From Coriobacteriia bacterium (GTDB taxonomy: Bacteria > Actinomycetota > Coriobacteriia > WRKU01 > WQUG01): 33,115 nucleotides of DNA. Below, one piece after another: positions 3,910-25,394 of this stretch (its first letter is position 1; every line of letters starts with the position of its first letter). Below the pieces are notes generated by a model, which worked only from the letters and a program-made list of their open reading frames with translations, was not told where the DNA came from and ran no database searches. Position numbers and translations under genes: made by a program. The stretch covers positions 1 to 33,115 of the forward strand of contig WRBW01000008.1 in NCBI GenBank assembly GCA_009784345.1. Direction: 5' to 3'.

Positions 3910-4791
3910 ATGATAGCAGCGATGATGCCGGGAGGTGGCGAAAAGAGCGGCAATAAGCGTGAGTTGACCCTCCATGTTTTGAGTGACTCGGTGGGTGAAA
4001 CTGCAGATACCGTGGGTCACATTATTGCCATTCAGTTTCCGCAGTTTCACTGGAATTATGTTCTGACGACCATGATTGACAGCGTGCAGATGCTGCATGA
4101 TACGGTCATGGCGCATCGGGGCGACAGCTCACACCTCTTTATTTACACCTTTACGAATCCCGCCCTGCGCGAAGAAATGATTACGATGCGCTACCCCGAC
4201 TGCGAGGAAAACCGCATCTATTCCATTGATGTGCTGGGCAGTGGTCTTGACATGGTGGCTGACCTGACGGGTGAGTCTCCATCTGGCATGGTTGGGATGC
4301 TGCACAAGGTCGATTCGGTCTACTTTAATCGCATCGAGGCCATGGAGTTTGCCGTCAATCATGACGACGGGCAACTGCCCGATGGCTTGGCAGAAGCAGA
4401 TGTTGTCTTGATTGGAGTGTCACGGACGTCCAAAACACCTCTTTCCATGTATTTGGCCCATCGCGGTCTGAAGACGGCCAACATTCCTCTTACCCTCGAG
4501 ACAGAGCCACCCGAGCAGCTCTTCGAGCTCGAGTCGAGCAAGGTCTTTGGTCTGATGACAGGTATGGACACACTCCTTAAAGTGCGCCAAGAGCGCATGG
4601 CAGAGTTTGGAGCCTATGTGCCCAACTATGCCGAGCCAGAGTATGTGGCGGCAGAGTTTGAATACGCGCGATCGCTGATGCGCAAGCTGGGTGCTCTTAT
4701 TATTAATACCGAGAATCGAGCAATTGAAAGCGTTGCACAAGAAATCTTGTCGCATTTACGCCCGACACTGCGAAACACCCTCAATCGTTAA
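3910..4791 (+). CDS. PPDK / PEP-synthase regulatory kinase-pyrophosphorylase (DUF299 family)
   Basis: Bifunctional ADP-dependent serine/threonine kinase and Pi-dependent pyrophosphorylase of the PDRP/PpsR family. It switches pyruvate phosphate dikinase or PEP synthase off and on by threonine phosphorylation. The 293-aa product starts with LHVLSDSVGETADTVG, the family's N-terminal signature, and has the P-loop-like GVSRTSKTP at about residues 169-177. ATG 3910 is used, with AAAGGA about 13 nt upstream; ATG 3922 and 3925 are alternatives. It sits 3 bp after glyS. The target dikinase gene is not in the window. Immediately after its stop codon the recA control region begins; the first box of the array there overlaps the stop. 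Confidence 0.9.
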   Translation: MIAAMMPGGGEKSGNKRELTLHVLSDSVGETADTVGHIIAIQFPQFHWNYVLTTMIDSVQMLHDTVMAHRGDSSHLFIYTFTNPALREEMITMRYPDCEENRIYSIDVLGSGLDMVADLTGESPSGMVGMLHKVDSVYFNRIEAMEFAVNHDDGQLPDGLAEADVVLIGVSRTSKTPLSMYLAHRGLKTANIPLTLETEPPEQLFELESSKVFGLMTGMDTLLKVRQERMAEFGAYVPNYAEPEYVAAEFEYARSLMRKLGALIINTENRAIESVAQEILSHLRPTLRNTLNR

Positions 4792-4859
4792 GGAATTTTT
4801 CATCTTTCTTTCAGGAATTTTTAATCTTTCTTTCATCTTGAGTTAATCTCGCTTTAATG
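4787..4859 (+). promoter_or_regulatory. Array of seven 7-bp direct repeats with 11-bp period upstream of recA
   Basis: Seven 7-mers start exactly every 11 bp: GTTAAGG at 4787, TTTCATC at 4798, TTTCAGG at 4809, TTTAATC at 4820, TTTCATC at 4831, GTTAATC at 4842, TTTAATG at 4853. Spacers are all 4 nt. A longer 22-bp direct repeat (4791-4812 and 4813-4834, one mismatch) reflects the same periodicity. Seven-base repeats on an 11-bp period are the known architecture of PhoB/OmpR-family response-regulator sites. The last box ends 9 nt before the TATGAT -10. The array touches the stop codon of the upstream gene and lacks a terminator-like hairpin. A closely similar array precedes comEA. Confidence 0.75.
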
Positions 4860-4868
4860 TCTGCGGGG

Positions 4869-4874
4869 TATGAT
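4869..4874 (+). promoter_or_regulatory. -10 hexamer of the recA promoter
   Basis: TATGAT at 4869-4874, 9 nt after the last box of the direct-repeat array, which occupies the place of a -35. This layout is typical of an activator-dependent promoter. Transcription would start near 4881, leaving a ~190-nt leader before recA. Confidence 0.55.
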
Positions 4875-4880
4875 GGCGGT

Positions 4881-5068
4881 GATTGCTGGTGTTTCTTTGT
4901 GGTGAGGCAACAAATTAGCGAACAGGTGGACGCATGCACGGATGTTTGTTATTCTTGTCCGTGATGAATGCTAAGTTATTCCAGAAGTGAAGGCCAGCAG
5001 CAGCTAGAACAGGCACATCGAAGGCTTTGATATGACGATAGAGTTACGTGGAGGGAATGAGGTAGGAC
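4881..5068 (+). other. Long recA leader with a possible 18-codon leader ORF
   Basis: About 190 nt separate the predicted transcription start from the recA ATG. The leader contains an ORF at 4934-4990 (ATG to TGA, MHGCLLFLSVMNAKLFQK) preceded by AGGTGG 4 nt upstream, and a weak inverted repeat (CACGGA about 4937, TCCGTG about 4958). Nothing resembles a known riboswitch. The small ORF may be chance; no homology can be claimed. Confidence 0.25.
4919..4932 (+). promoter_or_regulatory. Degenerate LexA/SOS-box-like sequence
   Basis: CGAACAGGTGGACG has one intact half (CGAAC) of the Gram-positive/actinobacterial SOS box and a poor second half (GGACG instead of GTTCG). It lies downstream of the predicted start site. 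It is the only sequence in the region resembling a LexA site, so SOS control of recA is not well supported here. Confidence 0.2.
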
Positions 5069-6130
5069 ATGGATGCTCAAAAAGAACAAATGCTAGAGTT
5101 AACCCGCGAGCAGATTGAAAAGAAATACGGCACGGGTTCGATTATGAAATATGGTGATGGTGCACAGCTCACTATCGAGGTCATACCTACCGGCTCGCTT
5201 GCCATTGATGCAGCCCTTGGGGTAGGAGGCGTTCCGCGCGGACGTGTCGTTGAAATATTTGGTCCGGAGTCCTGTGGTAAGACGACGCTTGCGCTGTCGA
5301 TTCTTGCAGAGTGTCAGGCCGCCGGGGGAGTAGCTGCCTTCATCGATGCAGAACACGCTCTTGACCCCAGTTATGCTGCCCGTCTGGGTGTGGATCTTGA
5401 TGAAATTCTGGTTTCACAACCTGACACGGGTGAGCAGGCCCTCGAGATTTGTGACATGTTGGTTCGTAGTGGGGCGATTGACATTGTCGTCGTTGACTCG
5501 GTTGCTGCCCTGGTGCCGCGCGCCGAAATCGAAGGAGAGATGGGCGACGCGACGGTTGGTGCCCAGGCGCGTTTGATGAGCCAGGCATTGCGTAAGCTCA
5601 CCGGTTCTTTGTCTAAGTCTAATACAACCTGTATTTTCATCAACCAGATTCGTGAGAAAATCGGTGTTATCTACGGCAGCCCAGAAACGACAACGGGTGG
5701 TCGAGCCCTCAAATTCTTTTCTACGGTACGCATTGATTTGCGCCGCGGTGAGGCCATCAAGCAAGGTACTGAGATTTTGGGTAATCGTACCAAGGCAAAG
5801 ATTGTCAAAAACAAAGTGGCACCCCCCTTTAGAATCGCTGAGTTCGACATCATGTACGGTGAGGGTATCAGCAAAGAGGGCTCGATTCTTGACCTTGGTG
5901 TTCAGCAAGGCATTCTGAAGCGTTCTGGTGCCTGGTATACCTATGGCGAGACGCGCCTGGGGCAGGGCAGGGAGGCGTCTAAAGAGACGCTGCGCACAAA
6001 CCCAGAAATGTGCCTTGAAGTCGAAACGGCCATTCGTGAGAAGCTGGGTATGACGGCACCGGCAGACCTTCGTGATGAGGCAGCAGCTGCAATCGCGAAG
6101 CCAGCGCCAAAAGGCAAGAAGACCAAATAG
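5069..6130 (+). CDS. recA: Recombinase RecA
   Basis: ATP-dependent DNA strand-exchange protein for homologous recombination and SOS co-protease activity. The 353-aa product has Walker [10 protein letters not shown] at residues 65-73, Walker B IDIVVVDS at about 138-145, the strand-exchange block [15 protein letters not shown], and a basic Lys-rich tail ending KGKKTK. It shows no intein or insertion and is of normal length. ATG 5069 is preceded by GGAGGGAATGAGG at 5050-5062. recX follows after 5 bp. The upstream direct-repeat array shared with comEA suggests regulation together with DNA uptake genes (inference). Confidence 0.98.
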
Positions 6131-6135
6131 CGGCT

Positions 6136-6735
6136 TTGAAGAAGCTCAGCATTCAGAATTTTGATGAGCTCGTTGCGGGCAGTGTCGCGTCTGCGTCCGC
6201 CGTTGTGGAACCTGATGAAGCTCAGGGTCGTGAGGATGAGCTCTATGAGGCAGCACGTCTTTGCGCCCACCGCATTATCAGGCGACGTGAGAAAACCGAA
6301 CATGAGCTTTTCAAAAGGTTGCGCGAAAAGGGACATGACCCGACCTCTTCACGTCAGGTCGTCGAGCGTTTTGTAGAGGTGGGGCTTGTTGATAACCGCC
6401 GCTATGTTGAGCTCTATCTGCGTGAAGCCCAAGGCTCGAAAAAAGGTTGGTATCGCATTGTGCGGGAACTCAAGCAGCGCGGCATAAGCTCTGAACTTCT
6501 GGAGGAGTTTGAAGTACCTACCGATGATGAAGAGCTGCAGCGTGCCGCTTTGGTGATAGAGCGCCTGAGTGTCGAAACCATTAAAGAACGTGAAAAAGCT
6601 TTGCGCAAACTGGTCGCAAGAGGCTTTAGTTATGGGGTCGCAAAGACAGCGATTGCTGCAAAGACCGATCGCTGGTCTGGGCGCACTCCGCAAAATCTAC
6701 ATGAAGATGGGGCTCCCTTTGATATAGACTTCTAA
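6136..6735 (+). CDS. recX: RecA regulator RecX
   Basis: Small helical protein that binds RecA filaments and modulates their activity; it is commonly encoded directly after recA, as here (5 bp after). The 199-aa product carries the three-helix RecX repeats: RIIRRREKTEHELFKRLREKGH, then RYVELYLREAQGSKKGWYRIVRELKQRGI, then KALRKLVARGFSYGVAKTAI. The likely start is TTG 6136 (LKKLSIQNF). No strong ribosome site precedes it, so translation may be coupled to recA; GTG near 6205 is a less likely alternative. The N-terminal ~35 residues are poorly conserved in style. It ends just upstream of the tRNA gene. Confidence 0.9.
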   Translation: MKKLSIQNFDELVAGSVASASAVVEPDEAQGREDELYEAARLCAHRIIRRREKTEHELFKRLREKGHDPTSSRQVVERFVEVGLVDNRRYVELYLREAQGSKKGWYRIVRELKQRGISSELLEEFEVPTDDEELQRAALVIERLSVETIKEREKALRKLVARGFSYGVAKTAIAAKTDRWSGRTPQNLHEDGAPFDIDF

Positions 6736-7686: not shown

Positions 7687-8691
7687 ATGGTAACCAGCCT
7701 TTTCAAAGGACTCGTGCGCGGTTTCGCGCTCTTTTTTGGTGTCTTTTCGGCGCTTAACATCATCGTGTCGCGCTTTGGCGCCGCCCGCGCCGAAGACATT
7801 TGGTGGATTCAATTTGACTACCTGCCCTCCTGGGCCGTAGCGATTCTTTCAGCTCTTTTGGCGCTTGCTCTGATTTGCTATGCTCTGGTTCCACATATGG
7901 GACTTGTGCGCAAAGTGCTCACTACGGGCATGTGCCTCATGTATGCCGTTTTTGCTCTTGTGAACGTCTTTGGCTACTATAGTTTTTTAAGCTCGGGCGT
8001 CTTCACCTCAGCCTTTCCCGTACCTTTTTCACTTTTCATAGTCGTAGGTTTTCTGCTAACAGGTATTGCTGCCTGGACACTTAATAATCGCCGGAATACC
8101 ACCTTTGAAACTTCATCGATGGTGGTCTTTGCCTTGCTGGGAGTCCTTCTGTTCCCCTTGGCTCAAATCTACACCTTTGGCTTTACCGACTACACCAGAC
8201 AGGCAGATGTGGCCGTGGTCTTTGGGGCACGTGCCTTTCCTGATGGTCGTCTATCTTCGACCTTGCGCTCGCGAGTAGACCGCTCGATAGAGCTCTACCA
8301 AGAAGGTTATGTGCCAAAGCTCCTCTTTACCGGTGGTATCGATGCAGATGGTGTCAATGAACCCGAAATGATGAAGCGCTACGCCGTCGAGCAAGGTGTG
8401 AATCCGGCAAATATTATCATCGATGATCAGGGTTCTAATACCGATTTGTCTGCCCGCAATACCGTGCCCATTTTTCGCGAAATGGGAGCAAGCCGCGTGC
8501 TTGCCGTCAGCCAAAACTATCACTTGCCGCGCATCAAAATGACCTATCGAGCCGAAGGCTTCAATGTTTTGACCGTACCTGCAGAGCCTGATTATTTCAT
8601 CCCTGCGACTTATCGCAATTTGACGCGCGAGACGACGGCTTTTTGGGCCTACTGGCTCCGAAGCGGAGTACGCGACTTGAGAGCCCCCTAG
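7687..8691 (+). CDS. SanA/YdcF-like DUF218 membrane protein
   Basis: The N-terminal ~160 residues contain about five hydrophobic helices, followed by a DUF218 (YdcF/SanA/ElyC-type) domain. That domain starts at DVAVVFGARAFPDGRLSSTLRSRVDRSIELY, continues with LLFTGG and SNTDLSARNTVPIFREMG, and ends with SQNYHLPRIKMTYRAEGF. DUF218 proteins sit at the cell envelope and have been linked to barrier function and cell-wall carbohydrate metabolism, but the biochemical activity is unsettled. The start is uncertain: ATG 7687 (334 aa) fits the -10 at 7674, ATG 7678 is possible, and the frame is open to a TTG at 7627. No ribosome site supports any of them strongly. The following gene, leuS, has its own promoter. 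Confidence 0.85.
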   Translation: MVTSLFKGLVRGFALFFGVFSALNIIVSRFGAARAEDIWWIQFDYLPSWAVAILSALLALALICYALVPHMGLVRKVLTTGMCLMYAVFALVNVFGYYSFLSSGVFTSAFPVPFSLFIVVGFLLTGIAAWTLNNRRNTTFETSSMVVFALLGVLLFPLAQIYTFGFTDYTRQADVAVVFGARAFPDGRLSSTLRSRVDRSIELYQEGYVPKLLFTGGIDADGVNEPEMMKRYAVEQGVNPANIIIDDQGSNTDLSARNTVPIFREMGASRVLAVSQNYHLPRIKMTYRAEGFNVLTVPAEPDYFIPATYRNLTRETTAFWAYWLRSGVRDLRAP

Positions 8692-8853: not shown

Positions 8854-11415
8854 TTGGCGCGCGACTATAACCCTCAAGACATAGAGTTAAAATGGCAGGA
8901 ATTCTGGGCTGCCAACGACGTGTGTCACAGCGACATCGATGAAACAAAAGAGAAAAAATACGTCCTCGAGATGTTTCCCTATCCTTCGGGTAGCCCTCAC
9001 ATGGGACATGTCCGCAACTACACCATAGGCGATGTTGTCGCCCGTCTTGCACGCATGCGCGGCTACAATGTCATTCATCCCATGGGTTGGGATGCCTTTG
9101 GGCTGCCTGCAGAAAATGCGGCCATCCAAAAAGGCTCACATCCTGCCGCCTGGACCTATCACAACATTGACGTACAAGAAGAGTCTTTCAAACGCATGGG
9201 CTTTAGCTTCGATTGGAAGCGCAAGGTCGTCACCTGCGATCCTGAATACTATCACTGGGGTCAGTGGCTCTTTGTCAAAATGTTCGAGCGCGGCCTCGTC
9301 GAGCGCAGAAAGAGCCCTGTAAACTGGTGTCCCAGCTGTGAAACGGTTTTGGCAAATGAACAGGTTGAAGGCGATGGCGTCTGCTGGCGCTGTTCGAGCC
9401 GCGTCGAAAAGCGCGACCTTTCACAGTGGTACTTTAAGATTACCGACTACGCTCAAGAGCTCCTTGATGACCTTGACCAGCTCAGCGCCTGGCCAGAGCG
9501 CGTCAAGGCCATGCAGGCAAACTGGATCGGACGCAGCACGGGGGCAAATGTCACCTTTACCATTTGTGATGCAGACGACCAGCCGACAGAAGAGACTATT
9601 ACCGTTTATACAACACGCCCTGACACGCTCTTTGGAGCCAGCTTCTTTTTGCTGGCACCAGAACATCCTCTGGTCGAAGAGTTCACGGCTAACACCCCCT
9701 ATGAAGCTGCTTGCAAGGCCGTCATTGCAGAATGCGAGCGCGAAACGGCCGTCGAGCGCGAAAGCGGTATTGCTGAAAAAATTGGCGCCTTCACCGGTCG
9801 CTATGTTGTGAACCCCATCAACAATCAAAAAATCCCGGTGTGGATTGCAAACTACGTTCTGATGGACTATGGTACCGGTGCGGTCATGGCCGTACCATCA
9901 GGTGATGAACGTGACTTCGAGTTCGCCCGCATCTATGACCTAAACATCCCACCGGTTGTCATCGCAGAAGATGACCCCTTGATGGACGCACTCCGCCACG
10001 AAAAAGAACTCAAGCATACAAATGTCGACTGGCAGCAGGCCTACACCGGTCCTGGACTCATGGTGCAGTCAGGTGACTTTACGGGGCTTGTAGGTGGCAA
10101 GGACAGTGAAGGTGCGCGCGCTGTCATCGAGGCGCTTGCGGCCAAAGATAAGGGCGAGGCGACCATCAATTTTCGCCTGCGCGACTGGCTGATTTCGCGC
10201 CAACGCTACTGGGGCAACCCCATTCCCATGGTGCACTGCGAAAGCTGTGGGCTGGTGCCCGTGCCTGAAGACCAACTGCCCGTGATTTTGCCGCTTGACA
10301 TCGACATTGCTGCTGGCGAGACGCTTCACAACACTGCCAGCTTCTATGAAACGACCTGCCCCAGCTGCGGAAAACCCGCCCGTCGCGAGACCGACACCAT
10401 GGATACCTTCACCTGCAGCAGTTGGTATTTCCTGCGCTATGCAGACCCTCACAATGACCAGCTGCCCTTTAGCAGCCAGGCCGCGAACTACTGGATGCCC
10501 GTCGACAACTACATCGGCGGCATCGAACATGCGATTCTGCATCTGCTTTATGCACGCTTTTTCATCAAGGTGCTGCGCGACATGGGCATGCTGAACTTTG
10601 ACGAGCCCTTCGTCCACCTGCTAACCCAGGGGATGGTCAAGCTCGACGGCACTAAAATGAGCAAATCAAAGGGCAACGTGATTTCTCCCGACGAGGTCGT
10701 CGCCCGTTACGGCGCAGACACGGTGCGCGGCTACATCATGTTCATGGGCCCGCCCGACAAAGACATCGACTGGTCGCAAGACGGCGTCGAAGGTATGTTC
10801 CGCTTCCTGAACCGCGTCTGGCGCCTGGTTGGGGAGTACCTCGATATCCGTGCATTAAACAAGACGGCGGAGTGCGTCCAAACCTCCAGTGCCGCTGCTG
10901 ACTTGGCGCCCGCAGAGGTCGACTTGCGCCACCAGACACATCGACTGATCAAGAAGGCCAGTGATGACCTTGAGCGTCAGCAGTTTAACACGGCTATCGC
11001 GGCTTTGATGGAGCTCACCAATGCCCTGTATGACTTCAAGCGCACGGCAGACTGGGCAACTTCAGAGATTGCTGATCATGCCATCCAGAGCCTGCTGAAG
11101 ATGCTTGCCCCCATTGTTCCCCATATTGCAGAAGAGCTTTGGGCGGACCTGCGCGATGGCGGTGCTGCAGATCTTGCAGACAGTGTTCACCTGCAATCCT
11201 GGCCGAGCTATGACCCAGAATTTGTGACAGCAGATACTATTGAGCTGCCGATACAAATTAATGGCAAGATTCGTGCACGGGTTAGTGTTGCAGCAGACGC
11301 TTCTGAAGAAGAAGTTGCAGATGCTGCAAAGCAGGCGAGTGCAAGCTACATCGAAGGGAAGGAAATCAAGAAGCTCATTGTGGTGCCAGGGCGCATTATT
11401 ACGATAGTTATTTAA
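8854..11415 (+). CDS. leuS: Leucyl-tRNA synthetase
   Basis: Class I aminoacyl-tRNA synthetase charging tRNA-Leu. The 853-aa product has the HIGH-type motif in PYPSGSPHMGHVRNYTIGD (about residues 41-59) and a zinc-site-like CPSCETVLANEQV followed by CWRC. The connective-peptide editing domain contains TTRPDTLFGASF and YGTGAVMAVP. The KMSKS motif occurs in LDGTKMSKSKGNV at about residues 597-609. The C-terminal anticodon-binding region ends in the usual QINGKIRARVSVAADASEEEV. I prefer TTG 8854 as start because AAAGGTG at 8842-8848 is correctly spaced; GTG 8845 overlaps that site. The gene ends 6 nt before the second TTTCATC box of the comEA control array, with no terminator between. Confidence 0.97.
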   Translation: MARDYNPQDIELKWQEFWAANDVCHSDIDETKEKKYVLEMFPYPSGSPHMGHVRNYTIGDVVARLARMRGYNVIHPMGWDAFGLPAENAAIQKGSHPAAWTYHNIDVQEESFKRMGFSFDWKRKVVTCDPEYYHWGQWLFVKMFERGLVERRKSPVNWCPSCETVLANEQVEGDGVCWRCSSRVEKRDLSQWYFKITDYAQELLDDLDQLSAWPERVKAMQANWIGRSTGANVTFTICDADDQPTEETITVYTTRPDTLFGASFFLLAPEHPLVEEFTANTPYEAACKAVIAECERETAVERESGIAEKIGAFTGRYVVNPINNQKIPVWIANYVLMDYGTGAVMAVPSGDERDFEFARIYDLNIPPVVIAEDDPLMDALRHEKELKHTNVDWQQAYTGPGLMVQSGDFTGLVGGKDSEGARAVIEALAAKDKGEATINFRLRDWLISRQRYWGNPIPMVHCESCGLVPVPEDQLPVILPLDIDIAAGETLHNTASFYETTCPSCGKPARRETDTMDTFTCSSWYFLRYADPHNDQLPFSSQAANYWMPVDNYIGGIEHAILHLLYARFFIKVLRDMGMLNFDEPFVHLLTQGMVKLDGTKMSKSKGNVISPDEVVARYGADTVRGYIMFMGPPDKDIDWSQDGVEGMFRFLNRVWRLVGEYLDIRALNKTAECVQTSSAAADLAPAEVDLRHQTHRLIKKASDDLERQQFNTAIAALMELTNALYDFKRTADWATSEIADHAIQSLLKMLAPIVPHIAEELWADLRDGGAADLADSVHLQSWPSYDPEFVTADTIELPIQINGKIRARVSVAADASEEEVADAAKQASASYIEGKEIKKLIVVPGRIITIVI

Positions 11416-11491
11416 GCTTCTTTCATCTTGCTTTAAACTGCTTTCATCTATCTTTCATCTTTCTTTCAGCTTCGATTAAGATGCGATAAAA
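11411..11491 (+). promoter_or_regulatory. Array of eight 7-bp direct repeats upstream of comEA
   Basis: Boxes start at 11411 (TTTAAGC), 11421 (TTTCATC), 11432 (TTTAAAC), 11442 (TTTCATC), 11453 (TTTCATC), 11464 (TTTCAGC), 11475 (ATTAAGA) and 11485 (GATAAAA, degenerate). Steps are 10 or 11 bp. The central pair (11441-11458) matches the E. coli Pho box (CTGTCAT-N4-CTGTCAT plus its AT spacer) at about 14 of 18 positions. The last box ends 9 nt before TATACT at 11501, the identical spacing found upstream of recA. The first box overlaps the leuS stop codon, as the first recA box overlaps the stop of its upstream gene. Confidence 0.75.
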
Positions 11492-11500
11492 GTCCACCCC

Positions 11501-11506
11501 TATACT
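11501..11506 (+). promoter_or_regulatory. -10 hexamer of the comEA-comEC-holA promoter
   Basis: TATACT at 11501-11506, 9 nt after the last repeat box. There is no -35 consensus, consistent with an activator-dependent promoter. Predicted transcription start is about 11513, which rules out the TTG at 11508 as comEA start. Confidence 0.6.
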
Positions 11507-11546
11507 GTTGCTCACAGACCTTAGTGACCAGTATGGGGGTGTTTTC

Positions 11547-12302
11547 GTGGATGATGAAAGATATGAACGCTACGGCACAGAGGCAGAGTCTCGTTTTGAA
11601 GAGGTCAAGGCAAAGTTAGGTATCACTGGCCTCTCGAAGCGTGCGTCCCTTGTGGTGGCTGCACTTGTTGTTGGCCTTTTACTGCTTGCCCTGTGGGATT
11701 ATTCGCCAGGCTTTCGTGAAATGATAGGTGGTCGCGCTTCAAGAGGCGATCTGAGTCTCATAAAAGCAGAAGATGATTCTGACACCTTGCCGGCAGGGGC
11801 AGATTCGGGTCAAAGCGAGGAAGATCAGGCTCAAGCACCTCAGAGCATCTATGTCTACCTGAGCGGTGAAGTGCGAAATCCGCAGGTCTATGAGCTGCCA
11901 GCTGGTTCGCGTGCCATTGATGCGCTCAATGCTGCGGGCGGCTTTCTGGAAACGGCCGCGCAGGAATCTTTGAATTGGGCGCTGCCTCTTGAAGATGGCA
12001 TGCACTTGCATGTTCCAACTGCAGAAGAGTTCGAGCTGCAGGGAGGGCAGAGTGCAGCTGCTAGCTCCTCCGGTGGACTCGCGCAGGGCGATTCTGGGTC
12101 GAGTTCACTCATAAACCTCAATACCGCAGATAGCGCAACGCTGCAGCAGCTGCCGGGCGTAGGACCAGTGACGGCAGATAAGATAGTTGCTGACCGTGAA
12201 AAAAACGGCAATTACAACAGTCTTGAGGATTTGACCAGAGTCTCTGGTATCGGGCCCAAGCGTGTTGAGGGGCTCGAAGGACTTGCCCATGTCGGGCCAT
12301 AG
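11547..12302 (+). CDS. comEA: Competence protein ComEA (SLBB + helix-hairpin-helix DNA receptor)
   Basis: Membrane-anchored DNA-binding receptor that holds incoming double-stranded DNA for ComEC. After a short acidic cytoplasmic N-terminus comes one transmembrane helix at about residues 34-50 (LVVAALVVGLLLLALW). An acidic/Gln linker follows, then an SLBB domain (IYVYLSGEVRNPQVYELPAG...LHVPT). The C-terminal tandem helix-hairpin-helix region is LINLNTADSATLQQLPGVGPVTADKI...LEDLTRVSGIGPKRVEGL. I chose GTG 11547 (251 aa) because GGGGGTG lies 6 nt upstream and because the promoter -10 at 11501 starts RNA after the upstream TTG 11508. comEC overlaps its 3' end by 14 nt. Confidence 0.93.
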   Translation: MDDERYERYGTEAESRFEEVKAKLGITGLSKRASLVVAALVVGLLLLALWDYSPGFREMIGGRASRGDLSLIKAEDDSDTLPAGADSGQSEEDQAQAPQSIYVYLSGEVRNPQVYELPAGSRAIDALNAAGGFLETAAQESLNWALPLEDGMHLHVPTAEEFELQGGQSAAASSSGGLAQGDSGSSSLINLNTADSATLQQLPGVGPVTADKIVADREKNGNYNSLEDLTRVSGIGPKRVEGLEGLAHVGP

Positions 12303-14574
12303 ACAGGTCATTGATAAGCGCGAACGTGTTGAGCCGCCGCCTCGTCCGCAGATACCTTTCATCGTGTGGATCATGCTTGCCTTTTTGCTGGGAGCGCTGC
12401 TCATGTATCTGCGGATGACGAACCTCTATCTCGATGCTGCAGAAGTGGTGCGTAGTTCTGAATCATTGCAGGTTCGTGCCCGCGATGATCCGCGTGAGGG
12501 CAGCTTTGGCGTCAGTGGGGAAGTCACCGTAATAGATGCCAGTAGCAGCTACCGGGGTAAGAGAATCGAGCTGCGCTACGGTCGTGATACAGAGCCGCTG
12601 CAGTTAGGTCAAGTGGCGACGGTGTCAGGGATTATTGAAGGTCTGCCTTTGGAGGGCAAGCAAGCGTTTCGCTTCAAAAAGGGTGTCTTTGCCACACTGA
12701 ACGTGCAAGCGCTTGAGCATCGTCATTATCAAAACACTCTGACGGGCATTTTGTGGAAACAGCGAGACGCAATGCAAAGCCGTCTGCAGGAGCGCTCGCT
12801 GGCACGTGCTGAACGGACAGCGAGCCCGCAGAGCAATCAAGATGCTTTTGGGCTGGTGTCAGGTCTTACCTACGGAGACAGAAGGTGGCTATCTGGCAGC
12901 ATTTTGGAATCTGCTCTCCAACATACCGGGCTTGCTCACTACCTGGCGGTCAGTGGCACTCATATGGCACTTTTGGCAGGACTTGCCTTTCTGGTCTTAA
13001 GCCGCACACCCCTGAGCAAGCCTGTGGTCTCCGCCATAACGCTTTCGCTTTGTATCAGCTTTGTCTTTTTCACAGGCTTTGCAGCTGGCAGTATCAGATC
13101 GGTCATCATGCTTGCCGTGGCATTATTGGCTTATGTTCTCTCTCGCAGGGTCTGTGTCATGAGCTCACTTGCCTGTGCGGGCCTGGGCATGCTGATGATA
13201 GAGCCGCTCCTCGCTGTTTCCTTGGGATTCCTCTTGTCCTTTGCTTCGGTCGCTGCAATCGTGCTCTTTGCGCGCTACGTGCAGCAATGGATTACCCTTG
13301 CGGTTCCGCTGCGCCTGCGCTACCGTGCCCGTCCGGCGTGCAATGCTCTTGCGATAGCGCTCGTTGCATCGCTATCAACCCTTCCCTTAACACTTGATGC
13401 CTTTGGGATTCTCCCCCTTATTGGACCTCTGGCAAATCTGCTGGTAGCCCCCGTGCTCGGGCTACTGCTCAGCCTCAGCTTTGTGGCACATTTTTTCTCA
13501 ATCATAGTCCCACCACTTGGCGCTTTACTGCTTGACCTCTGCCTCAGCCTCGCTGATGTCATTGCTACCATTATCACCTTTCTTGCCCGTATTCCCTGGT
13601 CAAGCCTTCCTGCAAGCGGCTTTTCAGCCTTTTCTATCGCTCTCTTTGTCTTTTCCATTGTGGGTCTTTGGTTCTGGTGGCCGCGACCCAGCACAAAGCT
13701 CGCTCTGCGATTTGCGGGGATTCTAGCCAGTGTGCTTATCATAGTGGCGGCTTCACATACCCTCGCCTCACGGGGTCACCAGCTCGGTCCACATGCACGT
13801 TCTGATAAGCTTGTGACCATTCTTGATGTCGGGCAGGGTGACGCACTTATCATTCGGGAAGGCTCGCATGTTGTCCTTGTGGACACAGGCCCTAGTCCTC
13901 AGGTCCTGCGCGAACAGCTCCTGTCTCATAAGGTGCGTCGTATCGATACGCTTGTCTTGTCCCACGATCACGCAGACCATGCCGAAGGCGCTAAAGCACT
14001 CAGCGCCTCATATGGCATCAAGCAGATAGTCGTCGCTGCAGGCTCCGAAAGCTCGCCTGTCTATCAAGAACTTGCACAAAGGCTGGGCGCGCCGCTTAGA
14101 GGAGCCCTAGCGGGGGACAAAATCATACTTGACTGGATAGAGCTTCGCTTCATTTGGCCGCAAGCCCCTGTCCGTGACCCCAGTGCTAATGAGTCCTGCC
14201 TCATTAAGCTCATCGTCGATACCGAACCCGCAGAAACAGATTCCAATCCCATAGATATAGTCCTGAGCAGTGGGGACGCAGAAGCCCCAGAACTAAGGCG
14301 AGCTCTTAACAGCCCTGCAGCAGATGAGGCTCTCAGCATACAGGGAAGGCAGCAGGAGGTCGATGTGCTCAAGGTTCCGCATCACGGTAGTAAGAACTCG
14401 CTTGACCAGTCGCTCTCGCAAGAGCTTTCAAGGGGGGCAGGCATAGCCATTATTTCATCAGGGGCTGATAACTCCTATGGACATCCTCGCCCAGAGCCGC
14501 TCGAGCTTATCGAACGCTACTTTCAAAAACTCTACCGCACTGATATGGTCGGCAGCGTTACAATAGAACTATGA
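12289..14574 (+). CDS. comEC: DNA uptake channel ComEC/Rec2
   Basis: Polytopic membrane protein that forms the channel passing single-stranded DNA into the cell. Two N-terminal helices flank the start of an OB-like soluble domain. The Competence domain follows with many helices from about residue 200 (GLAHYLAVSGTHMALLAGLAFLV) to 490. The C-terminal metallo-beta-lactamase-like domain begins TILDVGQGDALIIREGSHVVLVDTG, contains LSHDHADHAEG, and later VPHHGSKNSLD and SYGHPRPE. The metal-binding residues appear intact, so a nuclease role for degrading the non-transported strand is possible. ATG 12289 (761 aa) is preferred, with GAAGGA upstream; GTG 12262 is an alternative. It overlaps comEA by 14 nt and holA by 4 nt (ATGA). 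Confidence 0.95.
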   Translation: MSGHRQVIDKRERVEPPPRPQIPFIVWIMLAFLLGALLMYLRMTNLYLDAAEVVRSSESLQVRARDDPREGSFGVSGEVTVIDASSSYRGKRIELRYGRDTEPLQLGQVATVSGIIEGLPLEGKQAFRFKKGVFATLNVQALEHRHYQNTLTGILWKQRDAMQSRLQERSLARAERTASPQSNQDAFGLVSGLTYGDRRWLSGSILESALQHTGLAHYLAVSGTHMALLAGLAFLVLSRTPLSKPVVSAITLSLCISFVFFTGFAAGSIRSVIMLAVALLAYVLSRRVCVMSSLACAGLGMLMIEPLLAVSLGFLLSFASVAAIVLFARYVQQWITLAVPLRLRYRARPACNALAIALVASLSTLPLTLDAFGILPLIGPLANLLVAPVLGLLLSLSFVAHFFSIIVPPLGALLLDLCLSLADVIATIITFLARIPWSSLPASGFSAFSIALFVFSIVGLWFWWPRPSTKLALRFAGILASVLIIVAASHTLASRGHQLGPHARSDKLVTILDVGQGDALIIREGSHVVLVDTGPSPQVLREQLLSHKVRRIDTLVLSHDHADHAEGAKALSASYGIKQIVVAAGSESSPVYQELAQRLGAPLRGALAGDKIILDWIELRFIWPQAPVRDPSANESCLIKLIVDTEPAETDSNPIDIVLSSGDAEAPELRRALNSPAADEALSIQGRQQEVDVLKVPHHGSKNSLDQSLSQELSRGAGIAIISSGADNSYGHPRPEPLELIERYFQKLYRTDMVGSVTIEL

Positions 14575-15620
14575 GTACAGCTACAGCTTCAAAACCAAAA
14601 CTTCAACCAGTCAACATCATCATCTCAGAGCAAGACCTCTTGCGCGCAGAGGCCTTAAAGCTCCTGCGAAAACGCATGGAAGATGACGGCGTAGACCTCA
14701 GCTTTGACATGACGGTGCTTGATGCAGACAGTATGGATGTCGCAGAATTCTACGGCTCTGTTGGGACCATACCCTTCATGTCGCCCCTGCGCCTGGTCAT
14801 TGTGAACAATATCGACAAGCTGACCGTAGCAGACGAGCGCACGCAGGCTGTCCTCAACTACTGCAGCAACCCTAATCCCACAACCGTTCTTGCGCTAACG
14901 GCTCACAAGCTTGCCAAAACGACCAAGCTCTACAAGGCCATCGCGCAGGTCGGCCACATCATCGACCGCAAGGCACCCACTAAGCGTGACCTGCCAGAAC
15001 GCGTCATTTTGATGTTTGCAAAGGCCGGCATTCATGTCTCACTGCGCGAGGCAGACGTGCTCATAAACCTCGTAGGTGATGATCTCGCAAGCATCAATTC
15101 GGCCATCGAGCAGCTGGCGGCCTACAAAAATGTGGCGCAAAGACGCATGAACGGCGATGACACCCTGGTGCTCATAACGGTTCAAGAAATATCTGAACTG
15201 ATAGGCGAGACCAGTGAGGTCAAAGCCTGGGAGCTTACTGATGCGCTTGCGACGCGCAATGGCGAGAAGGTCATGGACATACTCTCCCGACTGACAAGGA
15301 CCGAAGGGGAGAAGATTGACCATTTCGTGGTCTTTTTGGCGGCAGGCAAAATCAGGGAACTGCTGACGGCACGCGTGCTAGCCTCGCGCGGTACTGCGAG
15401 CAAGGAAGCCCTGATGGCAGAGATGAAAAGTCAGTCAAAGACGGGTCGTGCCCCGCAGCCCTGGCTGGCAGAGCGCATCATCAGGCAATCACGTAATTTC
15501 TCGGTTGTCGAGCTGCGCGAGGGCCTGCGCGAATTGGCTGCGGTCGAGGACACACTAAAAACGAGCCCACCCGCATTGGGTAGGCTCGCCTTGGTACGTT
15601 GTTTACTAGCGCTGTGCTAG
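14571..15620 (+). CDS. holA: DNA polymerase III delta subunit
   Basis: Clamp-loader subunit that opens the sliding clamp during replication. The 349-aa product has the delta N-terminal fold (QDLLRAEALKLLRKR... VGTIPFMSPLRLVIVNNIDKL), the ALTAHKLAKTTKLYKAI segment, and the helical collar at the C-terminus (FSVVELREGLRELAAVEDTLKTSPPALGRLALVRCLLALC). ATG 14571 overlaps the comEC stop (ATGA). holA after comEC is a widespread arrangement. Its last ~60 bases contain the intrinsic terminator of the convergent rpsT gene, so the LKTSPPALGRLAL codons also encode an RNA hairpin on the other strand. Confidence 0.92.
   Translation: MSTATASKPKLQPVNIIISEQDLLRAEALKLLRKRMEDDGVDLSFDMTVLDADSMDVAEFYGSVGTIPFMSPLRLVIVNNIDKLTVADERTQAVLNYCSNPNPTTVLALTAHKLAKTTKLYKAIAQVGHIIDRKAPTKRDLPERVILMFAKAGIHVSLREADVLINLVGDDLASINSAIEQLAAYKNVAQRRMNGDDTLVLITVQEISELIGETSEVKAWELTDALATRNGEKVMDILSRLTRTEGEKIDHFVVFLAAGKIRELLTARVLASRGTASKEALMAEMKSQSKTGRAPQPWLAERIIRQSRNFSVVELREGLRELAAVEDTLKTSPPALGRLALVRCLLALC
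15557..15588 (-). terminator. Intrinsic terminator of rpsT, located inside the holA coding end
   Basis: Read on the minus strand, CGAGCC plus ACCC pair with GGGT plus GGCTCG (15562-15588) around a 5-nt loop, with one mismatch in the stem, and are followed by TTTTT (15557-15561). It lies about 57 nt beyond the rpsT stop. It is inside holA, whose stop is at 15620. On the plus strand there is no T-run, so it acts for rpsT only. Confidence 0.85.
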
Positions 15621-19850: not shown

Positions 19851-22800
19851 ATGCAACGCCATAAGCGCCTCATTGCCGCAATCACTCTGATTGCACTCCT
19901 TCCCATTTGGACGCTGTTACCCGCTACCGCCTACGCTGGTAGCAATGTCAGCTATATTGACGAAACAGGGACGACGCAAACAGTATCGACAACCACAGAC
20001 ATTACGACGGCTTCAACAGCCCTGGGTACTACGGGTACTACTACCTGGTATTCTGTACCTGCTGGCACCAGCGTCACGGTATCAAGCCGTATCGTCGTAT
20101 CAGGTGACGTTCGCCTGATTCTGATGGACGGCTCGACCTTTGATGCCTCGCAGGGTATTACGGTCTCTAACCCTGACAGCCTGACGGTCTATGCGCAGCA
20201 GGGGTCAGCAGGTAGCCCCGCGAATCTGGGCGCACTCACCACTGACCAGGGCTCCACGCCAGCCAGCATGGCAGGTATCGGTGGCGACGGATCAGCAAGC
20301 GCTGGTGACCCCCAGTCGATGGCAGGCACGATAACGCTCGTCGGTGGACGTATTACGGCCTACGGTGGTGACATGGGTGCGGGCATTGGTGGTGGCCGTG
20401 ATGGTAACGGCGGCACAACGACGATTTATGACGCCATTGTTAATGCCAGTGGCGCAAATGACAGTACCCTGCCAGGTGCCTATCGCGGTGCCGGTATCGG
20501 CGGCGGCGGCAACGGATCGGGCGGTACCATCGCCATTCATGGCGGTATCGTAAACGCCACAGGTGGCGGCTACGGTGGTGCCGGTATCGGTTCTGGTGGT
20601 TCATACTACAATCAAACAGGCGTGGCTGCTTCGGGTGGCACCATCCTGATTGACGGCGGTACTGTCACAGCTCGCGGTAATGACAGCGGCAACGGTGGTG
20701 GCGCCGGTATCGGTTCTGGTGGTGGAGACAGCTCAATCACGGGAACAGGTCCTTCGGGCGAGATCACCATTACGGCTTCGGCCAATGTCACCGCCTACGG
20801 TGGTAGCTGTCCTGCCAGCTATCCCAATAGTGCCGGCGGTGGTGCAGCTATCGGTTCTGGTGGTACGCTTGCTAATAATCAGCCTACCGGCGACGCCAGC
20901 ACGATCTTTATTGACATTCCTACCGCTAACCTCTCTGTCACGGCAGGCAGCGGTTATAGTAATGGACAAAACGGAGCACAGGTCGGTACGGGTGGCGGCA
21001 ACGACCCCAGCCTGCCCGGCATGCCAACCCTACCTACGGTTCCTACTGACATTACCGTCATTTCCAACAATACGACCGTGTGGGTCAAGTGGGATCCTAC
21101 CCAGTACACGGGTAAACCCATTACGGCTTACTTGGTTTCCTATGATGATGCGAACTGGCTTTCTGTCGGTCTGACCCAAATGGGTAACATCTTTACGGGT
21201 CTGACCAATGGCAGCACGGGTACTATCTGGGTGCGCGCAGAAAACGCCGACGGCATGGGTGCTATTCAGGCGGTCAACATAACCGCGGAAGCTCAGGTGC
21301 CAAACTACCCCGCAAACCTTGCCGCGACCGGTGGTACGCAAGAAGTAACCGTCAGCTGGGATGCGCCTAATACGATTTCAAATGTGCCCTATTATCCACC
21401 CAGCTCCAGTGATGGTTCTCCTGACGGTGGTAGCCCCATCACGGGATACAATGTCTACTATTCTACGGTTGACTGGGCTCCCTGGACTTTGGCAGGTACA
21501 ACTGACGCCAGCACCACCAGCTTTGACGTCACCGGTCTTGCCAACGACACAGAATACTATTTCTATGTAACCGCTGAAAACGCTGTGGGCGAGGGTCAAG
21601 TGCCTTATCCCACCGTATCAGCAATGACCTTCGATGTACCCGGGGCTGTTGCCACTTTTGATGTACACTCAGGTTCTGGCGGTCAAGACATAAAGGTCAG
21701 TTGGACGCCACCTGCCACCGATGGCGGAACTCCTGTGACCGATTATGTCATTTACTGGGGTACGGACATCTACAGCTGGACTTCTTCAGCCACGGTAGAT
21801 GCCTCGACCTTGTCCTATGATGTCAGCGGCTTAACAGAAGGACAGCCTTACTTTTTCAGTGTTGCTGCTGTCAATGCTGCTGGCTCAGGACCCCTATTCA
21901 CACCCGCGCTCGGTGCGACACCTGTAACGGTACCTTCAGCCCCGCAAAACCTTGCAGCCTCGCCCAGTGATAGCGCAGTCACGCTGACCTGGCATGCTCC
22001 TGCAGATGATGGCGGCACGGCAATTTTGTACTATGACCTGTCTTCTGATGGCGGTCAGTCCTGGACGGCCTCTGCGACAGCTGACACTATGAACTACACC
22101 TTCACGGGTCTGACCAACGGCAGCAGCTATGACCTTGCTGTGCGTGCAGTCAACGCGCAAGGACCATCTGCGGCAGCGCCCATCAGCGCAACACCGCTGT
22201 CCGTACCATCAATGGTCCAAAACTTTGTCGCACAGCCAGATCCACCTACGAGCTTTGACCTGAGCTGGGCAGCCCCCGCATCTGACGGTGGCAGTGCCAT
22301 CACGGGCTATGTCATATCTTGGTCTGATGACGGTGGCAGCACTTGGTCGGCACCTGTTAACCTCGATGCCAGCACGACCAGCTACACAGCGACCGGTCTG
22401 ACAGATGGGGTAGACTACACTTTCCAGATTTCAGCTACCAATGCCCTCGGGTCAAGTCCCGTTGCGCAGTCATCTGCAACAGATGCGACAGCTCCTGGTG
22501 CCGTGCAGGCCCTGACAGCAACACCTGCCGATTCTAGCGTTGCTCTGACCTGGCAGACTCCCGCTGATGACGGCGGCAGCCCCATTTTGTATTACGACAT
22601 CTCTACTGATGGTGGACTGTCTTGGACAGCTACGACTACGGCTACGAACTACACGGCAACTGGTCTGACCAACGGTACGAGCTATGACCTTTCCGTTCGT
22701 GCAGAGAATGCGGTTGAGGCAGGTCTTATATCTACGGTCACCACAACCCCCGCTACGGTACCATCAAGAGTCATGTCAGCCATTTGGTGGGATAGCGACT

Positions 22801-25394
22801 ATACGCTCACACCTCACTGGACACCTCCTGCAGATGGTGGTTCTCCTATTTTGTACTACACAGTGGATGTGAAAACCGAAGCTGGGGTAGAGGTTGCCGG
22901 AAGTCCTTACACCATTCCATCAACGGGCGACACGACTTATATCTTGCCTATAACACCTCTTAACAACGGTCAATTCTATGAGGTCAATATCACGGCAACT
23001 AATGCAATGGGTACTTCACTCCCAGCTGACTATACCGTGCAATGTATTGGCAACGCTCCTGAGCCACTCTCGGCAACCGCTACCGTCATTTCTGCAAACC
23101 AAGTTACCTTGACCTGGGTACCTGGTGTAAACACCAGTGGTGTAGGAATAATAGGTTACTATTACCAAGAGTCGTCTGATGGTGGAATTACCTGGGGTAA
23201 CACTGTTTCTGCTGGAGGCAGCACTGCAACGACTGACACGATTACCGTACCCACAGGTCAAGAGCTGATTTTCAAAGTTGGTTCACGCAATTCTGCTACT
23301 TATAGCGCAGCAGCTTTAACTAATTCTGTGTTTATTGCGGTGCCTCCCACGGCTCCTACTGGAGTAACGGCGACAGTAGGACCTGATGCGGGTGCCGTGA
23401 CGGTCGACTGGACAGCACTCACGACTAACTTTGGCTCACCTCTTACCGACTATACGGTCTACTGGTCAACCGACGGCAGCAGCTGGGATGCGTCCCAAAC
23501 CGTACCCTCGACCGCTACCAGTGATGAAATCACCGGCCTGACTCCTGGCCAGGAGTATTACTTTGCCGTTACTGCCAGCAATGCCCTGGGGGAGGGCGTC
23601 CAATCTACCCCCGCGGTTACGGCGACAACGCTCGCCACGGCAGCGCAACCAACCGGTCTTTCGGGTACTCTGGGCAACAATCAGGTAGCCCTGACTTGGA
23701 ATGCGCCTGCCAGTGATGGTGGATCGACGATAACGGGCTATGATGTCTACATGTCAACTGACGGTACCAACTACAGCTTGGTTCCTGCAAGCCAGCTATC
23801 ACAGCCCTCTGCCTCGAGTCCTTCGGCAACCGTGACAGGTCTCACTAACGGCACGCCCTATTACTTCCAGGTAGTACCGGTTACTGCAGCGGGTGAAGGC
23901 GCGAGCTCTGACCCTATTAGTGTCACACCAGCTGCCGTGGCAAGCAGTGTGTCAAGCTTTGAAGCTACGGCGACCTCGCCAACAAGCATGGACTTAAGCT
24001 GGACAGCCCCTACAGATAACGGTGCGGCCATCACGTCCTACACCATTACTTATTCAAGCGATGGGGGGCTGACTTTCAGCGCACCCGTTACCGTTGCTGC
24101 CCCCGCGACCAGCACGAGCCTTACGGGGCTGACACCCGGTGCGAACTATATCATTGGTATTGTTGCCCAAAATGCAGCTGGTGGTAGTGTTGCATCGACG
24201 GTGAATGCCTCTACCTGGGCCACGCCAGCTGTGCCTGCAAACTTCTCTGCCCTCAGTGGTGACGGTCAAGTTACCCTAAACTGGCAGCCACCTACTGATA
24301 GCGGCGGTACGCCCATCACGGGTTATGAGGTCTCTGATGATGGTGGAGTCACCTGGATAGACATCCCTAGCGCTGAAGCAACGAGTTACACCTTCACGGG
24401 TTTGACCAATGGCACCAGCTACAACTTTGTCATGCGGGCCCTAAACGCTGCAGGCACCGGTGCTGAATCGACGCTTTCTGCTGCACCCAGTGCAACACCT
24501 TCAGCCCCAGGAAACGTGGGTAACTTGACGGTGACACCTGGCGACGGCGACGCGACCATTAACTGGAGCAATCCTTCTGATACTGGTGGCAGTGCCATCA
24601 CGGGCTATGTCATTACCTGGGAGCCCGGTTCTGGTCAGACAACCGTGACCGCACCTACAAATACCTACACCATACCAGGGCTTAATAATGGTACTGACTA
24701 CACCATTACGATTAGTCCCATCAACAACACGGGTGTGGGGGACTCGACAACCATTGGCGTTACCCCACAAACCAGCTATTCTGTACTGGCAGACTACGGC
24801 ACCTGGACGGGCACCGGAACTGCTTTTGCAGAGGTCGACGGACCAATCAGCGACTTCATACGTCTGGAAACCGCAGCTGGCGTGGTTGTGCCTGCGACCA
24901 ACTATGTTGTGACCGAAGGTTCGACCATCACTACCTTTAGCATTGCTTACTTGAATACTCTTGCCAACGGTACCTACCACTACAAGATGATCTTTAGTGG
25001 CGGAGCTTCCGACCTGCTGACCCTCATCATTGCCCGTCCCGCAAGCGGCGGCGGTGGTGGCAGCAACACGGGTAATGGCGGTGCCGGTGGCGGCAACAGC
25101 CGCAATGCTAACAATACGAACAATGGCACGAACAATGGCAGCAACGGCGGCAGCGGCAGCAACAGTGGGTCTGGCAGCAATAATGGCAGCATCAATACGG
25201 GTAATAACACCCACCGTACTGCTACCCGTCAGCCAGCTCAACACCCCAGTAGAATGCCAAAGACGGGCGACGACCTGTTTAACTACCTGCCCTTCATGCT
25301 GATGTCATTGGTGATTCTGGCCATCACGGCAGAAAGTATCCGCAGGACGAAGAAGCGTAACGAGCTCGAGCCACTGCCAGACGACTCTGAATAG
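19851..25394 (+). CDS. Giant cell-wall-anchored Fn3-repeat surface protein
   Basis: The 1847-aa exported protein has a signal peptide at about 1-30 (basic start, hydrophobic core, cleavage near AYAGS). A beta-rich domain occupies about 31-135. A Gly-rich repeat region at about 140-350 carries at least four GAGIGxGG/GAAIGSGG turns alternating with TI-I-GG-V/I-A strands, probably a beta-helix. Thirteen fibronectin type III domains run from about 394 to 1641, joined by VPxAP linkers with W...AP, GGSxITGY and TGLTNGTSY motifs. An X2-like module follows (about 1642-1732: TNYVVTEG...AYLNTLANGTYHYKMIFSGGAS), then a Gly/Asn/Ser linker. The end is MPKTG (1802-1806), a hydrophobic helix and RRTKKR: a sortase sorting signal with Met in place of Leu. 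An adhesin or polysaccharide-binding role is inference. It has a paralogue directly downstream. Confidence 0.88.
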   Translation: MQRHKRLIAAITLIALLPIWTLLPATAYAGSNVSYIDETGTTQTVSTTTDITTASTALGTTGTTTWYSVPAGTSVTVSSRIVVSGDVRLILMDGSTFDASQGITVSNPDSLTVYAQQGSAGSPANLGALTTDQGSTPASMAGIGGDGSASAGDPQSMAGTITLVGGRITAYGGDMGAGIGGGRDGNGGTTTIYDAIVNASGANDSTLPGAYRGAGIGGGGNGSGGTIAIHGGIVNATGGGYGGAGIGSGGSYYNQTGVAASGGTILIDGGTVTARGNDSGNGGGAGIGSGGGDSSITGTGPSGEITITASANVTAYGGSCPASYPNSAGGGAAIGSGGTLANNQPTGDASTIFIDIPTANLSVTAGSGYSNGQNGAQVGTGGGNDPSLPGMPTLPTVPTDITVISNNTTVWVKWDPTQYTGKPITAYLVSYDDANWLSVGLTQMGNIFTGLTNGSTGTIWVRAENADGMGAIQAVNITAEAQVPNYPANLAATGGTQEVTVSWDAPNTISNVPYYPPSSSDGSPDGGSPITGYNVYYSTVDWAPWTLAGTTDASTTSFDVTGLANDTEYYFYVTAENAVGEGQVPYPTVSAMTFDVPGAVATFDVHSGSGGQDIKVSWTPPATDGGTPVTDYVIYWGTDIYSWTSSATVDASTLSYDVSGLTEGQPYFFSVAAVNAAGSGPLFTPALGATPVTVPSAPQNLAASPSDSAVTLTWHAPADDGGTAILYYDLSSDGGQSWTASATADTMNYTFTGLTNGSSYDLAVRAVNAQGPSAAAPISATPLSVPSMVQNFVAQPDPPTSFDLSWAAPASDGGSAITGYVISWSDDGGSTWSAPVNLDASTTSYTATGLTDGVDYTFQISATNALGSSPVAQSSATDATAPGAVQALTATPADSSVALTWQTPADDGGSPILYYDISTDGGLSWTATTTATNYTATGLTNGTSYDLSVRAENAVEAGLISTVTTTPATVPSRVMSAIWWDSDYTLTPHWTPPADGGSPILYYTVDVKTEAGVEVAGSPYTIPSTGDTTYILPITPLNNGQFYEVNITATNAMGTSLPADYTVQCIGNAPEPLSATATVISANQVTLTWVPGVNTSGVGIIGYYYQESSDGGITWGNTVSAGGSTATTDTITVPTGQELIFKVGSRNSATYSAAALTNSVFIAVPPTAPTGVTATVGPDAGAVTVDWTALTTNFGSPLTDYTVYWSTDGSSWDASQTVPSTATSDEITGLTPGQEYYFAVTASNALGEGVQSTPAVTATTLATAAQPTGLSGTLGNNQVALTWNAPASDGGSTITGYDVYMSTDGTNYSLVPASQLSQPSASSPSATVTGLTNGTPYYFQVVPVTAAGEGASSDPISVTPAAVASSVSSFEATATSPTSMDLSWTAPTDNGAAITSYTITYSSDGGLTFSAPVTVAAPATSTSLTGLTPGANYIIGIVAQNAAGGSVASTVNASTWATPAVPANFSALSGDGQVTLNWQPPTDSGGTPITGYEVSDDGGVTWIDIPSAEATSYTFTGLTNGTSYNFVMRALNAAGTGAESTLSAAPSATPSAPGNVGNLTVTPGDGDATINWSNPSDTGGSAITGYVITWEPGSGQTTVTAPTNTYTIPGLNNGTDYTITISPINNTGVGDSTTIGVTPQTSYSVLADYGTWTGTGTAFAEVDGPISDFIRLETAAGVVVPATNYVVTEGSTITTFSIAYLNTLANGTYHYKMIFSGGASDLLTLIIARPASGGGGGSNTGNGGAGGGNSRNANNTNNGTNNGSNGGSGSNSGSGSNNGSINTGNNTHRTATRQPAQHPSRMPKTGDDLFNYLPFMLMSLVILAITAESIRRTKKRNELEPLPDDSE
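20269..20880 (+). repeat. Gly-rich beta-helix-like repeat coding region, first protein
   Basis: Repeated coding units contain GAGIGGG or GAGIGSGG, spaced roughly 30-45 residues, each followed by a strand of the TITL-GG-ITAYGG type. The matching region in the second gene lies at 25988-26590, and some stretches are nearly identical at DNA level (around 20380 and 26100). The family is not firmly recognised; a pectate-lyase-like or carbohydrate-binding beta-helix is the best guess. Confidence 0.6.
21030..24773 (+). repeat. Thirteen tandem Fn3-domain coding repeats, first protein
   Basis: About 285-bp units each encode VPxAP...V-L-W-AP--DGG--I--Y...TGLTNGT-Y-F-V-A-NA-G. Unit 2 has a Pro/Ser-rich loop expansion near 21375-21430. 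Units 7 and 8 are the most divergent: unit 7 has an unusual strand-B motif and ends in QCI, one of the protein's very few cysteines. Confidence 0.85.

Follow-up and report, generated by a model that had tools for sequence, protein, structure and literature searches.

The recA promoter of this uncultured Coriobacteriia bacterium raises the question of which signal controls the gene when a regular repeat array stands upstream of it and a good SOS box is missing. Analysis of the window (the whole stretch of 33,115 nt) showed that seven 7-bp boxes lie upstream of recA on the forward strand, with exactly the sequences given in an earlier sequence-only reading (GTTAAGG, TTTCATC, TTTCAGG, TTTAATC, TTTCATC, GTTAATC and TTTAATG). 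The boxes start every 11 bp, at 4787, 4798, 4809, 4820, 4831, 4842 and 4853, and the array extends from 4787 to 4859. The -10 element TATGAT (4869–4874, forward strand) was confirmed 9 nt beyond the end of the last box, a gap that recurred in nearly all of the other arrays described below. Transcription of recA would start near 4881.

A scan of the 33-kb window for boxes with at least 6 of 7 matching positions found a seven-box run at a period of 11 only. The best runs at other periods reached 2–3 boxes for periods 7 to 21 and 4 boxes for period 22, and the minus strand had at most a three-box run. The recA array matched itself by 57% at a lag of 11 (p = 0.0002 against shuffles) and by 73% at a lag of 22, and this additional 22-bp super-period suggests dimer sites of 22 bp. 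The window contained 7 matches to the three-box pattern, where 0.05 were expected, and none of 100 shuffles reached 7. Five of these matches belonged to the recA array, and the other two to a second array located before comEA (11442–11481).

PHO boxes are defined by 11-nt direct-repeat units of 7 conserved and 4 less conserved positions (PMC4415409). The units of the present arrays had the same 7+4 composition, so the proposal that they represent a PhoB/OmpR-type footprint matches the published anatomy. The PHO boxes of PhoB and PhoP in E. coli, Bacillus and Streptomyces also share the strict spacing to the core promoter, with the -35 region covered (PMC4415409, PMC10294691), and both features were found here. 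The sequence supports reading the array as an activator site in the -35 position, as had been suggested. The arrays differed from PHO boxes in their targets, which concern DNA uptake and not phosphate, and in their boxes, which were TTTCATC, TTTAAGC or GGTAAGG instead of CTGTCAT or GTTCACC.

The recA gene (5069–6130, forward strand; Pfam RecA, E 8e-136) was followed directly by recX (6136–6735, forward strand; Pfam RecX domains), which by its position is probably on the same transcript. The recA leader (4875–5068) showed no significant RNA structure; its predicted fold was no better than those of shuffled sequences (z +1.09), and a structured leader was dropped as a candidate. The upstream neighbor of recA was a ppsR-like gene of the Kinase-PPPase family, and the upstream coding end at recA was kept in the nearest relatives (G001, G002 and G006).

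The LexA/SOS regulon of actinobacteria normally governs recA. Scored as the 10 positions of CGAACN4GTTCG, an SOS-type operator was present at recA in all 14 relatives compared, with 8–10 positions matching, so that by sequence recA is under this control in the relatives. Nearly all of these operators lay between TTGACA and a -10 element, which was degenerate in G002. In the genome studied here, the operator has been lost from the recA promoter, and the arrays bear no resemblance to CGAACN4GTTCG. The absence of a good SOS box reported earlier was thus borne out: the best match was CGAACaggtGgACG (4919–4932, forward strand) within the leader, which had 8 of 10 positions and no -35 or -10 elements around it. 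It is possibly a remnant of the ancestral LexA-type promoter, or it could be a chance match (p about 0.08). Exact SOS boxes were so few across the genome that no SOS regulon could be delimited from them.

The second array of the window, absent from the sequence-only reading, extended from 11411 to 11492 on the forward strand, with boxes at 11411, 11421, 11432, 11442, 11453, 11464, 11475 and 11486. The steps from 11411 to 11421 and from 11432 to 11442 were 10 bp, while the step from 11421 to 11432 and all later steps were 11 bp. The -10 element TATACT (11501–11506) was located 8 nt beyond the last box. The gene downstream was comEA (11547–12302, forward strand), encoding SLBB and helix-hairpin-helix domains. 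The GTG at 11547 was preferred as its start over the listed TTG at 11508, because the latter would be located at or before the transcription start; alignment by eye with relatives placed VDDERYERYG against MDDERYARSV and MDNPRYERYL. It was followed in the same direction by comEC (12262–14574; Pfam Competence, E 1.6e-44) and a holA-like gene for DNA polymerase III delta (14571–15620), the latter named by reading of its sequence.

The genome (1.48 Mb in 128 contigs, 85% complete) was examined through 175 kb of stretches and through pattern searches of the whole assembly. The whole-genome search returned 57 array matches, compared with 1 for the reversed pattern, and these collapsed to 13 arrays, so that the genome has at least 13. 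Targets were taken as the genes directly downstream and were named by ORF reading and Pfam. Besides recA and comEA-comEC-holA, the arrays preceded a Tad/Flp pilus operon (CpaB, a TadZ-like protein, the TadA ATPase, two T2SSF proteins and further small genes), the type IV prepilin peptidase gene, comF, and yraN-comM-dprA with two further genes of no known family. The remaining targets were an adhesin-like surface protein with thioester/SpaA domains, three genes of the YhcG/DUF1016 nuclease family, and three toxin-antitoxin-like modules (Gp49/HTH_3, a BrnA/CopG-type antitoxin, and an unclassified pair). The arrays thus preceded nearly all of the recognized DNA-uptake genes of this genome, and about half of them preceded YhcG genes, toxin-antitoxin-like modules or the surface protein, not classical competence genes.

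Each array was an uninterrupted 11-bp series of 5–8 boxes. By script, the -10 element lay 9 nt beyond the last box in 11 of the 13 arrays; the exceptions were comEA, with its 8 nt, and comF, which was missed by the script and had 9 nt by eye with CATACT. With the arrays aligned on the -10 element, the columns of 74 box units read T T T (C/A) A (T/G) (C/G), with a weak preference for TTTC in the bases after the box. A search of leaders and array loci for known RNA families of the Rfam type found only a tRNA.

The YhcG proteins corresponded to the PADLOC candidate defense family PDC-S02. Array loci with YhcG or toxin-antitoxin-like genes were L035 (contig C1), L041 (C43), L042 (C94) and L038 (C5), and L191, L193 and L194 in the sister-genus genome G003; some of their promoter regions were near-identical, as if promoter and module had been duplicated together. 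The two proteins without a Pfam match after dprA (L039: 7326–7967 and 7985–9142), one of which is MinD/ParA-like in look, have sister-genus orthologues in L147, and their place in an array-driven operon makes them possible new competence genes.

Conservation was examined in relatives, whose comEA loci were located by tblastn. G003 had arrays of drifted boxes (TTTAAGC/TTTAATC), again with an 11-bp period, before comEA, the tad operon, comF, yraN-comM-dprA and a gene for a large secreted protein. Further G003 arrays stood before a HicB-like module, before a HigA-like module with recJ behind it, and before the leaders of topA and of a seryl-tRNA-synthetase-like gene. Shorter versions were found at comEA and comF of G006, and the genus g3 had GGTAAGG-type arrays at comEA (GGTAAGGctctGGTAAGAgttcGGTAAGGggtctttgcTAAGCT). 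One four-box array of G003 (L089; G003:C97:3674–3713) was oriented opposite to the gene downstream and had no clear -10 element; it may be inert or may serve an unrecognized transcript.

At recA, no array was found in any relative examined. Conservation of the repeat upstream of recA in close relatives, on which the sequence-only reading had staked its proposal, was therefore not observed, while the geometry itself was kept in the sister genus at comEA, dprA, tad and comF.

The region upstream of comEA was tested across the class for three boxes followed by N9 and TANNNT, against 500 shuffles for each genome, so that p = 0.002 is the floor. Genomes of other families fitted the pattern at this floor (G010, G015, G017, G019, G023, G025 and G027; p = 0.002 each), with G015, G017 and G019 representing one genus. 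About ten genomes did not fit at all, and the comEA promoters without a fit included those of f4, f6 and f7. The combined value over 17 genomes outside the family was p = 6e-8, which is somewhat optimistic because the box consensus and gap had been settled on promoters of the family and some outside promoters had been seen before the test.

A scan of 120 genomes of the class gave 31 matches, compared with 0 for the reversed pattern. Matches outside the family were located before recQ, dcd and a SipW-like gene and, in two families, upstream of a leader before secA, so that in the class as a whole genes other than com genes carry the signal too. The secA-type arrays (L327, L329 and L334 in G033, G071 and G109) lay between the same two genes in these two families, and the leader downstream of them was some 200–300 nt and matched no Rfam family. 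Outside the class, a phylum-wide scan gave scattered matches at a few times the control rate, several of which were simple tandem repeats, and the array loci inspected there had no com genes. In a pattern scan of all GTDB genomes, the matches listed came mostly from scattered, unrelated taxa. One Saccharibacteria genome (RGIG5850) had several intergenic TTTAAGG/TTTAAGC arrays of 11-bp period beside unrelated genes (L107, L133, L136 and L149).

Because the arrays stand at com, tad and dprA genes, in the sister genus as well, and fitting comEA promoters occur in the class, the arrays are likely the shared promoter design of a predicted competence regulon, and the recA array would be its copy at recA. 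A shared promoter signal on the uptake pilus, comEA/comEC, comF and dprA, as found here, is what marks such a regulon. The earlier proposal that recA answers to a two-component signal was upheld in part: the anatomy is PhoB/OmpR-like, but the array is not specific to recA. Since it is shared by the predicted competence regulon, competence is a more probable signal than some unspecified two-component cue. With the LexA-type promoter lost and an array promoter located where transcription should start, recA seems to have changed masters in this lineage, from DNA-damage control to competence control. By this comparison of promoters, recA is a lineage-specific recruit to the predicted regulon.

In the proposed mechanism, a putative activator would bind head-to-tail with one subunit per 11-bp unit, each unit being a 7-bp box, [G/T][G/T]T[A/C]A[G/T][G/C], plus 4 bp, and probably as dimers on 22 bp. 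With the -10 element at -12 to -7, the last box would occupy about -28 to -22 and its neighbor the -35 region, so that the activator would stand in for the -35 element and recruit RNA polymerase to the -10 element, which follows at a distance of about 9 nt; PhoB works in this way at Pho promoters. Once switched on, the regulon would co-express the Tad/Flp pilus with the prepilin peptidase, ComEA/ComEC, ComF and YraN-ComM-DprA. RecA would join this set in this lineage only, its ancestral LexA-type promoter having been lost, and the same promoter design would also drive the YhcG-type nucleases and the toxin-antitoxin-like modules. We infer that the arrays are activator sites and that the cells are transformable.

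The genome encoded four OmpR-type regulators (on contigs C28, C76, C12 and C5). Almost every genome compared within the order had orthologues of the C28 and C76 groups. The C12 gene adjoined pst genes, and its group was not found in the array-bearing genus g3; the C5 group was patchy among the genomes compared. None of the 18 OmpR-type genes inspected had an array upstream, so that autoregulation points to none of them. Taking anatomy, distribution and operator spacing together, an OmpR/PhoB-type response regulator is the best fit and is favored somewhat better than evenly, with the C28 and C76 groups as the first candidates; a LytTR regulator receives a small share, and the rest falls to something else. 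A BldC-like activator was rejected. BldC operators of Streptomyces are likewise direct repeats of variable number bound head-to-tail, but their units are 9 bp (PMC5859096), compared with 11 bp here, and no HTH_17 protein was found in this 85%-complete genome.

The main rival keeps the same competence regulon and assigns it to a LytTR-type regulator like ComE of streptococci. The LytTR half-site is GTTN[AG][TG], which the box core GTTNA[G/T] resembles. This genome had one LytTR gene (contig C106), and almost every relative had one or more. Competence in streptococci, for instance in S. mutans, is under LytTR control, but known LytTR operators are spaced pairs, mostly 12 bp apart with a minority at 11 or 13 bp (PMC6193735), and not the long, uninterrupted 11-bp arrays found in this genome. 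In addition, a LytTR gene was not found in two incomplete genomes that bear the geometry, G010 and G109 (86% and 90% complete), and this assignment is considered unlikely. Alternatively, the arrays could serve a wider response to stress or nutrient supply, such as one to phosphate limitation through the PhoB-like regulator C12, with the competence genes and recA as only one part of it. The boxes do resemble the actinobacterial PHO boxes (GTTCACC in Streptomyces; PMC4415409), and toxin-antitoxin-like modules, the surface protein and YhcG genes are among the targets. The putative pst promoter of this genome (L045, about 8160–8420, in the pst intergenic region of C12) had by eye an 11-bp TTTAAYA repeat, similar to the competence boxes but distinct from them. 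However, the genome scan found no array before phosphate genes, no phosphate-acquisition gene was among the 13 array targets, genus g3 has arrays although the C12 group was not found in it, and the core competence genes are covered nearly completely. A broader response of this kind is thus considered unlikely.

It could also be that the arrays are no operators at all: they may be AT-rich tracts in helical phase, forming curved DNA or UP elements, or copies of a promoter cassette that was duplicated along with toxin-antitoxin modules. The boxes are AT-rich and one helical turn apart, and several arrays at toxin-antitoxin-like and YhcG genes are near-identical to one another. Yet GC-rich relatives have GGTAAGG or GTTCAGG boxes while the period and the gap persist, the base preferences of the box (A/C at position 4, T/G at 6, C/G at 7) are unlike those of A-tracts, and the targets are functionally coherent, which leaves this explanation very improbable. 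The operator of a competence regulon, bound by an OmpR/PhoB-type regulator, remains the preferred reading of the arrays.

A dispersed word was also detected. The most over-represented word in the 175 kb, arrays aside, was TGGACGCACTCC, with 19 exact copies against about 0.03 expected. The 15-mer TGGACGCACTCCNCC had 52 sites within one mismatch in the same 175 kb, compared with 1.1 for shuffled cores, and alignment gave the motif TGGACGCACTCC-N-CC with sharp edges. Of the 52 sites, 38 fell within genes, where both strands and several frames were represented, although the density was higher between genes. In the window, TGGACGYVCTCC had eight copies against 0.01 expected, and motif sites were located at 1552, 10869, 19204 and 23591 on the minus strand and at 3284, 9983, 25422 and 31136 on the plus strand. 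The 15-mer was enriched in G003 as well, and no enrichment was found in g3 or in the samples from other families. Being short, over-represented, mostly genic, present on both strands and sharp-edged, TGGACGCACTCCNCC looks by its distribution like a candidate DNA-uptake sequence, as in Neisseria and Haemophilus, and such a sequence would fit a genome with an active predicted competence regulon. To our knowledge, DNA-uptake sequences have been described only from Neisseriaceae and Pasteurellaceae.

In Firmicutes, the competence regulons of ComK in Bacillus and ComX/SigX in streptococci place one signal on comEA-comEC, comF, dprA, pilus genes and recA, and the same gene set carries one shared promoter signal here. 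The Firmicutes signals are a K-box or a sigma-factor box, whereas here the signal is an 11-bp array, the pilus is of the Tad/Flp type, and toxin-antitoxin-like and YhcG modules are included. Among actinobacteria, the closest comparison is Micrococcus luteus, which has comEA/comEC and a Tad/Flp pilus and in which transformation depends on the Flp pilus (PMC4322843, PMC6370729); no shared operator has been described there, and the regulatory cascade of competence in this actinobacterial model was still unidentified in January 2026 (PMC12849477). Within the literature library searched, no paper named both "Coriobacteriia" and "comEC", and none was found on natural transformation in Coriobacteria by title and abstract. 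The kind of system is therefore known, while the operator, the host class, the capture of recA and the toxin-antitoxin and YhcG members are new to us.

Tentatively, these observations can be combined in a wider picture, in which Coriobacteriia would possess their own competence regulon, controlled through a PhoB-like 11-bp array, with Tad-type uptake coupled to toxin-antitoxin and YhcG modules, recA captured from SOS control in this lineage, and DNA marked by the 15-mer. A visible shared operator makes the switching of actinobacterial competence testable, as it names the targets, predicts the transcription starts and provides bait DNA for the regulator. Transformability of some gut Coriobacteriia is a further prediction. 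At recA, a core repair gene would plainly have passed from one regulon to another, and the presence of toxin-antitoxin and YhcG modules on the same promoter suggests a link between DNA uptake and either growth arrest or defense against incoming DNA.

Beyond the com genes, the window contained a gene for an 1847-aa fibronectin-III-like surface protein (19851–25394), which adjoined an open frame of at least 2518 aa (25562–33115) that runs past the window end.
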